Below, in pieces: positions 6,023 through 30,252 of a stretch of 64,000 nt of DNA. The stretch comes from a virus: positions 1 to 64,000 of IMG/VR virus record IMGVR_UViG_3300028558_000022; one strand, 5' to 3'. Position numbers and translations under genes: made by a program. The notes under the pieces were generated by a model that saw only the letters and a program-made list of their open reading frames with translations, was not told where the DNA came from and did not search any database. Position 1 is the stretch's first letter, and each line of letters opens with the position of its first letter.

Positions 6023-6096
6023 CGGGGAGTACCTCAGTTGGATAGAGGACCGGGCTATCTGCCCGGAAGTCGGTGGTTCGAGTCCACTCTGCCCGG
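6023..6096 (+). tRNA. tRNA, anticodon loop reads ATC (Asp codon GAU)
   Basis: Cloverleaf: acceptor CGGGGAG pairs with CTGCCCG with one G-G mismatch and is extended by TGC/GCA outside, D stem CCTC/GAGG, anticodon stem CCGGG/CCCGG around CTATCTG, T arm GGTGG-TTCGAGT-CCACT. The anticodon would be ATC, with an unusual A34 and a pyrimidine at 37. Bacterial Asp tRNAs use GTC, so the identity is uncertain and the tRNA may be non-standard. Confidence 0.65.
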
Positions 6097-6122
6097 CATC
6101 AAGTTGAGAGGAGAAAAAGTCA

Positions 6123-6377
6123 ATGAACATTCCGTTCTTTAGCAAGTTGTTTGCAAAGGTCAAGGCCAGCATTACGGCTGCCGAAGGCTCCGCGTTCGTC
6201 AAGATCGCAGAGGCCGAAGCGAAGGGTCTCGAAGCCAAGGGCCGTATTGTGGCAATCGACGCCGCGAACAAGGCCAAGACCGAGCTGGTCGCCTTCTACG
6301 AGAAGGAAGCCTCACGCGTTCACGCCGAGGCCGACAAGATCAAGGCAGACTTCGACGCGATTCTCGCGAAGCTGTAA
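6123..6377 (+). CDS. small alanine/lysine-rich helical protein
   Basis: 84 residues with a strong ribosome binding site (GAGAGGAGAAAAAGTCAATG). Nearly all of it should form one long helix (EAEAKGLEAKGRIVAIDAANKAKTE in heptad-like order), suggesting a coiled coil. It lies between a tRNA and the tmRNA. No family recognised. Confidence 0.8.
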   Translation: MNIPFFSKLFAKVKASITAAEGSAFVKIAEAEAKGLEAKGRIVAIDAANKAKTELVAFYEKEASRVHAEADKIKADFDAILAKL

Positions 6378-6503
6378 TCGCATTACGCCCCACGCGCAAC
6401 TTACCAATTACGCTGCACTGCCACTCGTGAAACGCGTGTAACGGTGGGAGGGCCGGTTTGATACCGGGGTGAGGCACCTTAACATTTCTCGGAGATCACT
6501 CAA
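6378..6503. other. Intergenic stretch, one hairpin, no gene seen
   Basis: CCGGT-TTGAT-ACCGG near 6453-6467 forms a short hairpin without a T run. Nothing else is supported. Confidence 0.3.
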
Positions 6504-6614
6504 ATGATCGTAGTCCTTCTCGTCATGTGGTTACTGGGATACGGCGCTGCAATTGACGCCGCGTTCCATGCACACACTTTGCTCTTCATCCTTGGATTGA
6601 TCTTTCTCGGATAG
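6504..6614 (+). CDS. 36-residue membrane peptide
   Basis: ATG 6504 to TAG 6614 with GGAGA eight bases upstream. The peptide is two hydrophobic stretches (IVVLLVMWLLGYG and HTLLFILGLIFLG) joined by a short polar turn, so probably a small hairpin in the inner membrane. It ends where the tmRNA acceptor piece begins. No family recognised. Confidence 0.6.
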   Translation: MIVVLLVMWLLGYGAAIDAAFHAHTLLFILGLIFLG

Positions 6615-7014
6615 AGCGCCAAGAACGCACGTAAACTCGCATTTCGGACATGGGTTCGATTCCCATCCGGTCCACCAGAGAGGGTAGTAGACTCGGGCTG
6701 GGTAATGTCACAACATTGGTCCTAGAGCAATACGACTGAGCTTGTGTACTACCTTCTCTTGTGGGCCGGTCACGGTTTCGACGGAATAAGGGCGTGCAAG
6801 TAGCCGACTACTTTAACAGCGGAAAACAACAACTGCCGAAACTCTCGTCAGTAAGCGTAGCGCAAAGGTGATCCCGTTCGTGAGCCGCAAGGTTCGCGCG
6901 TTGGTTCCACAGACCGCGATGCTGTTGGCAGCTTAGGCTGCCGGGGGTTCGTCCCGAATCCTAGCAACAGAAGTTCTCACCGCGAAAGCACTGAGGACGG
7001 CGGGACTTTTTATG
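6615..7014 (+). ncRNA. ssrA: Circularly permuted (two-piece) tmRNA
   Basis: The 3' acceptor half is encoded first: ATTTCGGAC, T arm ATGGG-TTCGATT-CCCAT, then CCGGTCC-A-CCA ending at 6677. The coding half starts at 6763 with GGGCCGG...GGTTTCGACGG, the classic tmRNA 5' end. GGGCCGG pairs with CCGGTCC over 7 bp, and CGTGC (coding half) pairs with GCACG (acceptor half) as helix P2. Between them, 6677-6759 folds into a 13-bp stem (AGAGAGGGTAGTA/TACTACCTTCTCT) that would be cut out. The tag most likely ends MLLAA with its TAG (6934-6936) in the hairpin GGCAGC-TTAG-GCTGCC; a GCG resume codon at 6898 gives ALVPQTAMLLAA. The 3' end near 7014 is inferred from a GC stem followed by TTTTT. Confidence 0.88.
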
Positions 7015-7143
7015 TTTCACCGAAAGCAGGGAGCACCTTGCGGGGCTTAATGGACCTGCCTGAAAGGTTGTCCTCTCCGGTGTCGTCCGCGCGGGCCGGA
7101 GATGAGTCAATAGACGGTAAAAATCCGTCCGGTGAGTAGCTCA
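7015..7143 (+). other. Structured-looking spacer between tmRNA and tRNA
   Basis: No frame of useful length. Several complementary pairs are visible: CACCG/CGGTG, GCAGG/CCTGC, CTCCGG/CCGGAG and GACGG-TAAAAAT-CCGTC. This could be the tail of the tmRNA precursor or a separate small RNA; no known class recognised. Confidence 0.35.
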
Positions 7144-7217
7144 AGATCGGTAGTTTAATGGCAAAACAACAGGCCCTTGCTGCCTGTGTTCCGGGTTCGA
7201 GTCCCGTCCGATCTTGA
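7144..7217 (+). tRNA. tRNA, probable anticodon TTG (Gln)
   Basis: Acceptor AGATCGG pairs perfectly with CCGATCT, D stem GTTT/AAAC with AATGGCA loop, anticodon stem CAGGC/GCCTG around CCTTGCT, T arm CCGGG-TTCGAGT-CCCGT with one mismatch. The anticodon would be TTG, but position 33 is C instead of the near-universal U and one extra base sits before the anticodon stem. No CCA is encoded. Confidence 0.65.
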
Positions 7218-14279: not shown

Positions 14280-15818
14280 ATGGAATTTATCGCACAATTC
14301 AAGGCGGCCCGGCGAGTAAGTACGCCTCTCGTATCTATCCGAACCTTTGACGCGAAGTCCACAACGGACGCAATACGCGCGGCACTCGGGGAAAAGCTGA
14401 AAGATAATGCTTTGATTCTCTGGGACACAATGAACGGTATGCGGGCGCTAACGGAACGCGGCGGCGAAGAGCTTGCACACATCTTACAGGGTGCGGACCC
14501 AGCGGCGAGTATGGACCTTGCGTCAACTCTGAAAATGGCGGAAAACGCCCGGACTAACGTTACTCTGTTTTTGTCCAATGCACATTTATTCGTCAAGAGT
14601 GACGAACCCGCGATAATTCAAGGCGTCTGGAACTTGCGCGATAACTTCAAGGCAAACGGAAACATGCTCGTACTGCTCTCACATCCGGGCGCATCTTTAC
14701 CGGTCGAGTTGGTTTCCGATGTTCTGGTATTGGATGAACCCCTTCCGACACGGGCGGAGCTGGGCGCAATCATCGGTAACACTTTTAAGTTTGCCAAACT
14801 CGAAACCCCGGACGCCGGAACGCTGGAAAAAGCAACTGATGCCCTCATCGGTTTACCCGCGTTCCCGGCTGAACAGTCTACCGCGATGTGTTTGGACACG
14901 AAGTCTAAGGCGCTAGACGTGGCGGAACTTTGGGCGCAAAAAAGAGAGATCATAAGCCAAACCCCCGGCCTGTCAATGTGGACGGGTTCCGAAAAGCTGG
15001 ACGATATCGGCGGCCTAGAGTCCGTCAAGGATTTTTGCTCCGCCGTTATGACCGGCAAAGACGCGCCAAAAGTCATTATCTTTTTGGACGAGGTAGAAAA
15101 GCTCTTCGCCGGTACCGGTACGGACCTATCCGGCGTCAAAACGGAACTAACCGGCGAAATGCTCAAATGGATGCAGGATCGCGAAATAGACGGAACTATT
15201 TTTATCGGGGTTCCGGGCGCATCTAAAAGCCAACTTGCAAAGTCTTTGGGCGGTTCGTTCGGCGTTCCGGTAATTCATTTTAATCTGGCAGCTATGCAAA
15301 GCTCACTAGTTGGAAGCTCGGGCGCAAATCTGCGGGCCGCCATGAAAACGGTTGACGCAATCAGTGACGGGCGTATCTTTGCGATTGCAACGTCTAACGG
15401 TATTGATTCTCTACCGGCTGAGCTTCAATCTAGATTCCAGCTCGGGACGTTTTTCTTTGATGCACCGGACGCGGAAGAGCGGGCCGCAATCTGGGATATT
15501 TACCGGAACAAATACAGCATACCGGCTGAACAAAAGACGCCGGAGTCTAACGGTTGGACCGGTCGCGAAATAAAGGAATGCACCAAAAAGGCGTACCGGC
15601 TGAACTGGACGCTAGAAAAGGCGGCCCAGTACGTTGTCCCGGTCACGAAGTCTAACGCGGAACGGATAAACGGTCTCCGGGCGGCGTGCTCGGGTAAGTA
15701 TCTATCCGCATCGAAGCCGGGCGTCTACCAGTACACGGGCGCAACGGCGGCCCCGGTCCCGTCACACACGGTCGCGCATAACACGGGCGGACGGGTTGTC
15801 CGGTTTGACGAAGAATAA
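14280..15818 (+). CDS. Ycf46-like AAA+ ATPase with permuted Walker motifs
   Basis: 512 residues from ATG 14280 (GAGG eight bases upstream). The N-terminal 200 residues follow the Ycf46 pattern (ALILWDTMNGMRAL..., LSHPGASLPVELVSDVLVLDEPLPTRAEL). In known Ycf46/AAA+ proteins Walker A precedes Walker B. Here VIIFLDEVEK (about 265-274) plus the EMLKWMQDRE segment come first, and GVPGASKS (310-317) follows. After SLVGSSGANLRAAMKTVDAI the chain goes straight to IFAIATSNG (about 367-374) and the arginine segment ELQSRF (about 381-386), with no second Walker B. Genes for DUF1257, DUF2997 and a radical SAM protein follow, pointing to one machine. Ends GGRVVRFDEE. Confidence 0.85.
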   Translation: MEFIAQFKAARRVSTPLVSIRTFDAKSTTDAIRAALGEKLKDNALILWDTMNGMRALTERGGEELAHILQGADPAASMDLASTLKMAENARTNVTLFLSNAHLFVKSDEPAIIQGVWNLRDNFKANGNMLVLLSHPGASLPVELVSDVLVLDEPLPTRAELGAIIGNTFKFAKLETPDAGTLEKATDALIGLPAFPAEQSTAMCLDTKSKALDVAELWAQKREIISQTPGLSMWTGSEKLDDIGGLESVKDFCSAVMTGKDAPKVIIFLDEVEKLFAGTGTDLSGVKTELTGEMLKWMQDREIDGTIFIGVPGASKSQLAKSLGGSFGVPVIHFNLAAMQSSLVGSSGANLRAAMKTVDAISDGRIFAIATSNGIDSLPAELQSRFQLGTFFFDAPDAEERAAIWDIYRNKYSIPAEQKTPESNGWTGREIKECTKKAYRLNWTLEKAAQYVVPVTKSNAERINGLRAACSGKYLSASKPGVYQYTGATAAPVPSHTVAHNTGGRVVRFDEE

Positions 15819-24790: not shown

Positions 24791-25210
24791 ATGAGCACAA
24801 CGAAAAGCAAAAAGAATCTTTCCCGTAAGGCCATCAACTTCCTCACCCGACTAGCCGAGGCCGTTCTCGCCGACCCGAAGCACTACAACCAAGGTTCGTA
24901 TCTTCGTACGAACGACAAGGGCGAACAGTTTGGCTGCCTTGCGTTCTTTGCCGCGAGGCTCCGCGCAAAGACAGCGAAGGCACTCACAGAACTCACATGG
25001 GGCGACGTGGCAAACACTCGCTGGGATGTCTGGGACGAGCTAGGGTTGCCGGGCGCCGAAAACGGCGGTAGCGACGTGATGTTCTCAACAGAATATCAGT
25101 GGCCCGAGAAGTTCCGCAGACAGTTCGAACAAGCCAAGGGTCCGAAGGGTCAAGCACGCGCGGCCTACAACCGGATCATGCACTTTATCGCAACTGACGG
25201 CGCCGAGTAA
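24791..25210 (+). CDS. hypothetical protein, tandem paralog 2
   Basis: 139 residues from ATG 24791, after the same TTTCAGGAGATCA ribosome binding region as paralog 1. Helical N-terminus (KAINFLTRLAEAVLADPKHYNQ), GCLAFFAARLRA, WPEKFRRQFEQA. Function unknown. Confidence 0.8.
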   Translation: MSTTKSKKNLSRKAINFLTRLAEAVLADPKHYNQGSYLRTNDKGEQFGCLAFFAARLRAKTAKALTELTWGDVANTRWDVWDELGLPGAENGGSDVMFSTEYQWPEKFRRQFEQAKGPKGQARAAYNRIMHFIATDGAE

Positions 25211-29109: not shown

Positions 29110-30252
29110 ATGAATGTGAAGGTCAATCTCACGAAGCGTATCAATATAGACGGACAGAAGCGGTTCGTCCCAGTCGTTCAGGCGGCCAACGGTCGGATCA
29201 AAGCCGACTGGGTAGTGATCGACGGCGCCGAGCAACGGTATCCCGGTGGGAGCTTCTACATAGACTGGACCGAAGGCGGCAAGCGTCGGCGGGAATCGGT
29301 CGGCGTGAGCGCGGCGACGGCGGTTGCCCGGCAGCTCCGCAAGGAAGCTGAACTCAAGGCTAAGGGTCAAGGACTTACCGTAACCTCTCAAGACGACCGC
29401 GACCGGCGCCTGACGGTCGAGACAGCCGTATCCGCCTATCTGGAAGAGATCGCACTCACAAAGAAGCCTAAGACCGTTTCGGCCTACACGACGAGCCTGT
29501 CCTATTTTCAAGAATCTTGTACAAAGACCTACATCGATGAGATCGAGCGGCTGGACATGATCCGGTTCCATGCGTACCTGAGGGACAAGAAGGCACAGTC
29601 CCCGCGTAGCTGCTGGAACAAATTCTCGAACGTGATGGGATTCCTGAAGGCTCAAGGTGTTCGCAAGATCGTGAAGCCGGGCGATTGGCCGAGGTACGTC
29701 GAAGAGGAGCCAGAGGCATACGAGCGGGAAGAGCTTGACAAGTTCTTCGACGCTTGTAACGACAATGAGCGTACTCTGTACGAGTTCTTCCTCATGACCG
29801 GGATGCGTGAGCAAGAGGTCATGCACGCCATGTGGCAAGACGTGAACCTCAAGCAAGGGACGATTGCGATGAAGTGGAAGCCCGAGCTTGACTGGACTCC
29901 CAAGGCGTACAAGGAACGCGAGATTCCCGTTCCTACAAAACTTTTGAAGAAGCTCGAAGATCGCCGACCGGCGAACGGACGCGGCTTGATCTTCCCTACC
30001 TCTGGCGGCCTACCAAACGGTCACTTCCTTTTGTTCTGCAAGAACATTGCGAAGCGTGCCGGTCTCGATCCCGAGAGCTGGTGGCTTCACAAGTTCCGCG
30101 CGACGTTCGCAACGTGGCACCTTCAGGCCGGGGTCGATCTGCGGACCGTACAGAAGTGGCTCGGTCACACAGACCTTGAGTCAACTATGCGGTACCTGAA
30201 GGCCGCCCGTGGCGCCGAGGTTCAGGCGAAGGTCAACCAGACGTTCGCCTAG
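29110..30252 (+). CDS. int: tyrosine integrase
   Basis: 380 residues. A basic N-terminal arm-binding region (MNVKVNLTKRINIDGQKRF...), a SAM-like core-binding domain (about 95-185) and the catalytic domain with TGMREQEVMHAMW (Arg), KEREIPVP, HKFRATFATW (HxxR), VQKWLGHTDLESTMRYLK (His and Tyr). All catalytic residues are present, as in phage integrases that use tRNA genes. The adjacent attP core with arm repeats and the opposite-strand excisionase form a complete integration module. Confidence 0.95.
   Translation: MNVKVNLTKRINIDGQKRFVPVVQAANGRIKADWVVIDGAEQRYPGGSFYIDWTEGGKRRRESVGVSAATAVARQLRKEAELKAKGQGLTVTSQDDRDRRLTVETAVSAYLEEIALTKKPKTVSAYTTSLSYFQESCTKTYIDEIERLDMIRFHAYLRDKKAQSPRSCWNKFSNVMGFLKAQGVRKIVKPGDWPRYVEEEPEAYEREELDKFFDACNDNERTLYEFFLMTGMREQEVMHAMWQDVNLKQGTIAMKWKPELDWTPKAYKEREIPVPTKLLKKLEDRRPANGRGLIFPTSGGLPNGHFLLFCKNIAKRAGLDPESWWLHKFRATFATWHLQAGVDLRTVQKWLGHTDLESTMRYLKAARGAEVQAKVNQTFA

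Follow-up and report, generated by a model that had tools for sequence, protein, structure and literature searches.

The window, the whole stretch of 64,000 nucleotides that was analysed, carries on its plus strand a gene that is, as judged from its sequence, a permuted (two-piece) tmRNA gene, extending from position 6627 to about 6981. The Rfam model for the permuted tmRNA, RF04321, is matched over its full length (model positions 1 to 213) at 69.7 bits against a cut-off of 47 (E = 6.6e-13), the match spanning window positions 6627 to 6865, and ARAGORN called a permuted tmRNA with a tag of 33 amino acids. The permuted-tmRNA pattern has one match in the window and none in 100 shuffles, and the folding of the precursor has a z of -5.6 relative to shuffled sequence. 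A sequence-only reading had proposed a phage-encoded permuted tmRNA at 6615 to 7014 and had named Rfam and ARAGORN as ways of checking it. Both bear the proposal out, although its interval is too generous: the end of the coding piece is probably near 6981 rather than at 7014. The components of the gene are as follows.

6627..6677, plus strand: acceptor (3') half of the tRNA-like domain, placed by the RF04321 match and ARAGORN, its 5' boundary being the start of the match; it consists of GCACG (6627-6631), CGGAC and the T-arm from 6645, CCGGTCC (6667-6673), and A with the encoded CCA (6674-6677).
6678..6762, plus strand: intervening segment of 85 nt, expected to be removed, with a long hairpin, placed by the fold.
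6763..6834, plus strand: 5' part of the coding half, placed by RF04321, ARAGORN and the covariation of the acceptor stem and helix 2; in order GGGCCGG (6763-6769), TCACGGTTTCGACGG, CGTGC (6793-6797), the pseudoknot-1 region, and AACAACT before the resume codon.
6835..6936, plus strand: predicted tag reading frame from the GCC resume codon to TAG, AETLVSKRSAKVIPFVSRKVRALVPQTAMLLAA and stop (33 aa), placed by ARAGORN and homologous long tags.
6937..6981, plus strand: 3' part of the coding half with hairpin loop CCTAGCAACAGAA at 6960-6972, placed by the alpha_tmRNA consensus and motif counts; the 3' end near 6981 is an estimate from that consensus and this conserved 3' loop.

The acceptor half thus precedes the coding half, with the intervening segment between them. 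The acceptor stem forms 7 of 7 pairs between the two halves, with G3-U70 and a 3' ACCA, and the resume codon, tag frame and stop codon are all present. G.U as the third acceptor pair is the classical alanine identity pair. A second helix pairs GCACG with CGTGC. The earlier reading had given both pairings, an acceptor half ending CCGGTCC-A-CCA at 6677, a coding half starting GGGCCGG at 6763, and an 85-base spacer with a hairpin from the CCA end, all of which are as described. The spacer folds at -32.8 kcal/mol (z = -3.3 versus shuffled sequence), and the base of its hairpin lies directly against the CCA end on one side and the first G of the coding half on the other. Upstream of the gene is a tRNA with anticodon ATC (Asp) and an acceptor-stem mismatch (6023 to 6097), and a tRNA-Gln follows it (7143 to 7216). 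No Pfam domain was found in the ten ORFs flanking the tmRNA gene.

The window lies in a 90,978-base IMG/VR virus record whose proteins are phage proteins. By DNA polymerase, the nearest named phage is Tunturi_3 of Tunturiibacter psychrotolerans (Acidobacteriota), and a gene-by-gene comparison found the whole record to be collinear with it, with identities of 88% for the capsid, 69% for the portal, 71% for the ribonucleotide reductase and 56% for the DNA polymerase. The record is probably near complete, because both of its ends match the same Tunturi_3 gene. Since the record is collinear with Tunturi_3, an acidobacterial host is likely, and judging from these relatives the window phage probably infects a member of the Terriglobales. 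Soil is the source of the named relatives. When phages were searched by BLASTN with the tmRNA region and by megablast with 25 kb, nothing matched, and the DNA polymerase had no relative in the 84,980 bacterial and archaeal genomes scanned, which thus gave no prophage link to a host.

The gene is shared by related phages. Tunturi_3 has an unannotated permuted tmRNA at the same position, just downstream of the homologue of ORF 6123-6377; Tunturi_4 and the unrelated jumbo phage Tunturi_5 have one each, and Tunturi_1 and Tunturi_2 gave no permuted tmRNA match. The word tmRNA is absent from the text of the Tunturi phage paper (PMC11924767). Among 49 more records whose DNA polymerase is related, 22 match RF04321; for those longer than 80 kb the figure is 13 of 16. 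The tmRNA is not essential to the phage group, since three large relatives have no match.

Both helices that join the halves covary across these phages. For the acceptor stem, all pairs are formed in 22 RNAs of the clade (154/154, where partner-swapped sets average 123.8 and never exceed 135), a count that is somewhat favoured where 5' halves were located using complementarity, others having been placed by the covariance model alone. Four different pairs occur at positions 4 and 5 and three at position 6, with G-U at position 3 invariant. The second helix is formed in 21 of the 22, where swapping the partners gives an average of 13.1 and never more than 19, and has compensatory forms such as GCACG/CGTGC, GCATG/CATGC and ACACG/CGTGT. 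Spacers in the relatives are 11 to 219 nt long, and most, not all, are hairpins. At locus L124 (7577 to 7940) the T-loop is GGCGGCA instead of TTCGANT, near the GGCgGUA of the alphaproteobacterial consensus. Tunturi_4 also has a match to the Twister-P5 ribozyme at 24894 to 24951 (62.2 bits, cut-off 37.6).

In the likely host group the tmRNA is of the standard form. Of 150 Terriglobales genomes, 141 yielded a full-length standard tmRNA, Edaphobacter (Tunturiibacter) lichenicola and Granulicella among them; at the 30 acidobacterial loci that were read, the tag is 9 to 10 residues long, e.g. ANNNLALAA and AEPQFALAA. A search of 297 Acidobacteriota genomes with RF04321 found no genuine permuted tmRNA gene; nine matches were considered as host permuted tmRNAs and rejected, each being a standard ssrA with a tRNA immediately before it. 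Scores above the RF04321 cut-off at such tRNA and ssrA pairs (L339 to L347) are a systematic false positive of relevance to genome annotation.

That all nine chromosomal matches arise in this way raises the question of whether the phage gene is likewise a standard tmRNA, or a tRNA beside one, misread as permuted, and ARAGORN did also give a one-piece candidate in the region. This is very improbable. No tRNA match overlaps 6583 to 6677, and all seven positions of the acceptor strand pair with the coding half of the phage itself, a pairing that covaries in the 22 RNAs; the artefact caused by an upstream tRNA is thus not applicable to the window. The standard model RF00023 stays below its cut-off of 47, its best match having 27.2 bits at 6450 to 6677 and sharing only the acceptor half, and the one-piece order of 5' half, tag and 3' half was not found in the window. 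The outcome that the earlier reading had named as a refutation, covariance models scoring only a standard tmRNA or none, was not seen. The one-piece ARAGORN prediction, at 6239 to 6677, was rejected as an artefact: it lies partly in a protein ORF, has no proper 5' half, and covers a region that scores 27 bits with RF00023. Low-threshold ARAGORN runs gave only noise. The best clan match in the window is beta_tmRNA (RF01850, betaproteobacterial), with 48.1 bits, below its cut-off of 84. The alphaproteobacterial model RF01849 (cut-off 50 bits) did not outrank it and stayed below its own cut-off in the window, which four relatives pass.

Integrases frequently target ssrA genes, and the window has a tyrosine integrase at 29110 to 30252 (Pfam PF00589, E 1.3e-23). 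That the gene is a fragment of host ssrA, captured at an attachment site and left by integration, is nevertheless very unlikely: host ssrA is one-piece, the two halves of the phage tmRNA covary with each other, and the longest stretches common to the window and the ssrA loci of five host-group genomes are 11 to 16 nt, with the 16-nt stretch falling within the conserved GTCACGGTTTCGACGG.

The tag of the window tmRNA, AETLVSKRSAKVIPFVSRKVRALVPQTAMLLAA, ends in LLAA. This C-terminus fits the ClpX signal known for E. coli. The tag is longer and more basic than that of the host; tags in the clade, read by eye or script, have 11 to 36 residues, and 75 of 115 permuted tmRNAs in sampled viral contigs have tags of 10. 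Homologues of the window tag occur at L124 (ATNVGVVKQTAKVIPFRAPARRVVATRSAMLMAA), in Tunturi_5 (AKNSPVVRGTAKVLSFARKFVPAVSSTRAFAMAA) and in several other IMG/VR contigs (AKNTDSAKNAKVLAFPARPAVALQMAA-like), and the Tunturi_3 tag ends in SRKVRVAQFATMLAA. Other phage tags also contain the AKVIPF core, among them the tag of the jumbo phage Tunturi_5, which is unrelated but has a host of the same genus. One search of the examined stretches of the other IMG/VR contigs with tag homologues found no proteins of the window phage. The codons of AKV[IL]xF vary synonymously (GCA/GCC/GCT, GTG/GTC/GTT and CTG/TTG/CTC), and these changes support the view that the frame is translated. Four related phages (L196, L204, L209 and L192) have tags without a C-terminal AA, ending in AAAGV, AAAGR (two) and EFVKV; such tags might allow release of the ribosome without marking its product for ClpXP. 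A separate viral group with permuted tmRNAs (L009, L020, L054, L059, L067, L071, L074 and others) has tags of 28 to 31 residues in which a TFDFSAMSFTGNTV-like stretch lies ahead of a normal ending.

From the arrangement, the pairings, G3-U70, the tag frame and the conservation of the gene, it is taken, at a probability of roughly 0.85, to encode a working two-piece tmRNA belonging to a Tunturi_3-like phage, matured by the host and charged with alanine, which would tag stalled proteins and supplement the one-piece tmRNA of the host during infection. A single transcript would contain the acceptor half, the hairpin spacer and the coding half, and the spacer would be excised by host RNase P and 3'-end nucleases. 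The acceptor stem and the second helix are predicted to hold the two pieces together. Charging by the alanyl-tRNA synthetase of the host would rely on G3-U70, as the invariance of this pair suggests. Entry into stalled ribosomes would involve host SmpB and EF-Tu; the function would depend on SmpB from the host because the phage record has no match to this protein. Stalled proteins would gain the 33-residue tag, with LLAA acting as a normal degradation signal. An RF-1-type rescue factor was not found in the window record. Tunturi_3, which carries a tmRNA, has an annotated RF-1 domain release factor of rescue-factor size at 14802 to 15140.

Instead of tagging proteins, the RNA could act as a decoy or inhibitor that ties up stalled ribosomes or the SmpB of the host and so prevents trans-translation by the host. 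Such a role has been proposed for the RNA of mycobacteriophage DS6A, which has only the tRNA-like domain, and a molecule similar to it inhibits tmRNA (PMC4131195, PMC11915505). The endings AAAGR, AAAGV and FVKV of some tags in the clade would suit this role, but a decoy needs no tag, and the window RNA has an open tag frame ending in LLAA, with synonymous changes in the related frames. A decoy is accordingly improbable, and tagging is the preferred reading.

A two-piece phage tmRNA is not in itself an undescribed kind, and in this respect the sequence-only reading, correct as to what the gene is, was mistaken in supposing that it might be new. Fifty-three distinct two-piece phage tmRNAs were published in 2022, 50 of them from marine or aquatic samples and including that of the methylophage Melnitz (PMC9004378). 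The permuted form is covered by RF04321, and phages account for 79 sequences, taking all forms together, in the tmRNA database (PMC11915505). In IMG/VR, the permuted-tmRNA pattern matches at least 120 contigs. The gene of the window phage is like those of Melnitz and the mostly marine phages in being phage-borne and circularly permuted, with two pieces expected. It differs in that the hosts of Melnitz and its relatives belong to bacterial groups in which two-piece tmRNA is well known (PMC9004378), whereas the likely host phylum here has the one-piece form; the 33-residue tag is not ANDxxxxLAA-like, and the named relatives are from soil rather than marine. The literature searched contained no report of phages that carry a permuted tmRNA while the phylum they infect uses only the standard form, nor of the shared long tag. 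What is new, as far as could be found, is the setting, acidobacterial phages whose host phylum has standard tmRNA.

The gene shares features with two known systems. With the alphaproteobacterial permuted tmRNA (RF01849) it shares the order of the halves, the spacer and the 3' hairpin loop CCUnGCAACAGAA that ends the alphaproteobacterial model; the core of this loop occurs in 30 of 30 sampled alphaproteobacterial loci, none of 30 acidobacterial loci, and 10 of 22 phage RNAs, including that of the window. With Terriglobales standard ssrA (RF00023), which unlike it is one-piece and has tags of 9 to 10 amino acids, it has in common GTCACGGTTTCGACGG, CGGAC, TTCGA and G3-U70. The tRNA-like core does not group with the alphaproteobacteria but stands apart with acidobacterial sequences in a rough tree, which at about 135 nt and with midpoint rooting only is too short to decide origin. 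We take this to mean that the gene is of alphaproteobacterial type and that its core appears to have been adapted to another host; possibly, the permutation arose independently. A bolder view is that acidobacterial phages keep a permuted-tmRNA lineage of their own, of independent origin or from a re-adapted alphaproteobacterial source, that works in a one-piece host, and that the long AKV[IL]xF tag, which two or more unrelated groups of phages have, does more than mark proteins for ClpXP, for instance by redirecting products to another protease or to a factor that helps infection. This is a speculative proposal and rather unlikely to hold as a whole.

These phages keep a two-piece RNA although their likely hosts make only the one-piece version. 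The host must therefore be able to mature a form that is not its own, or the phage supplies the means to do so. Tunturi_3, 4 and 5 have been cultured with their hosts, which makes both the maturation and the role of the tag directly testable. The conservation of the long tag suggests that phages may affect what becomes of stalled proteins during infection.
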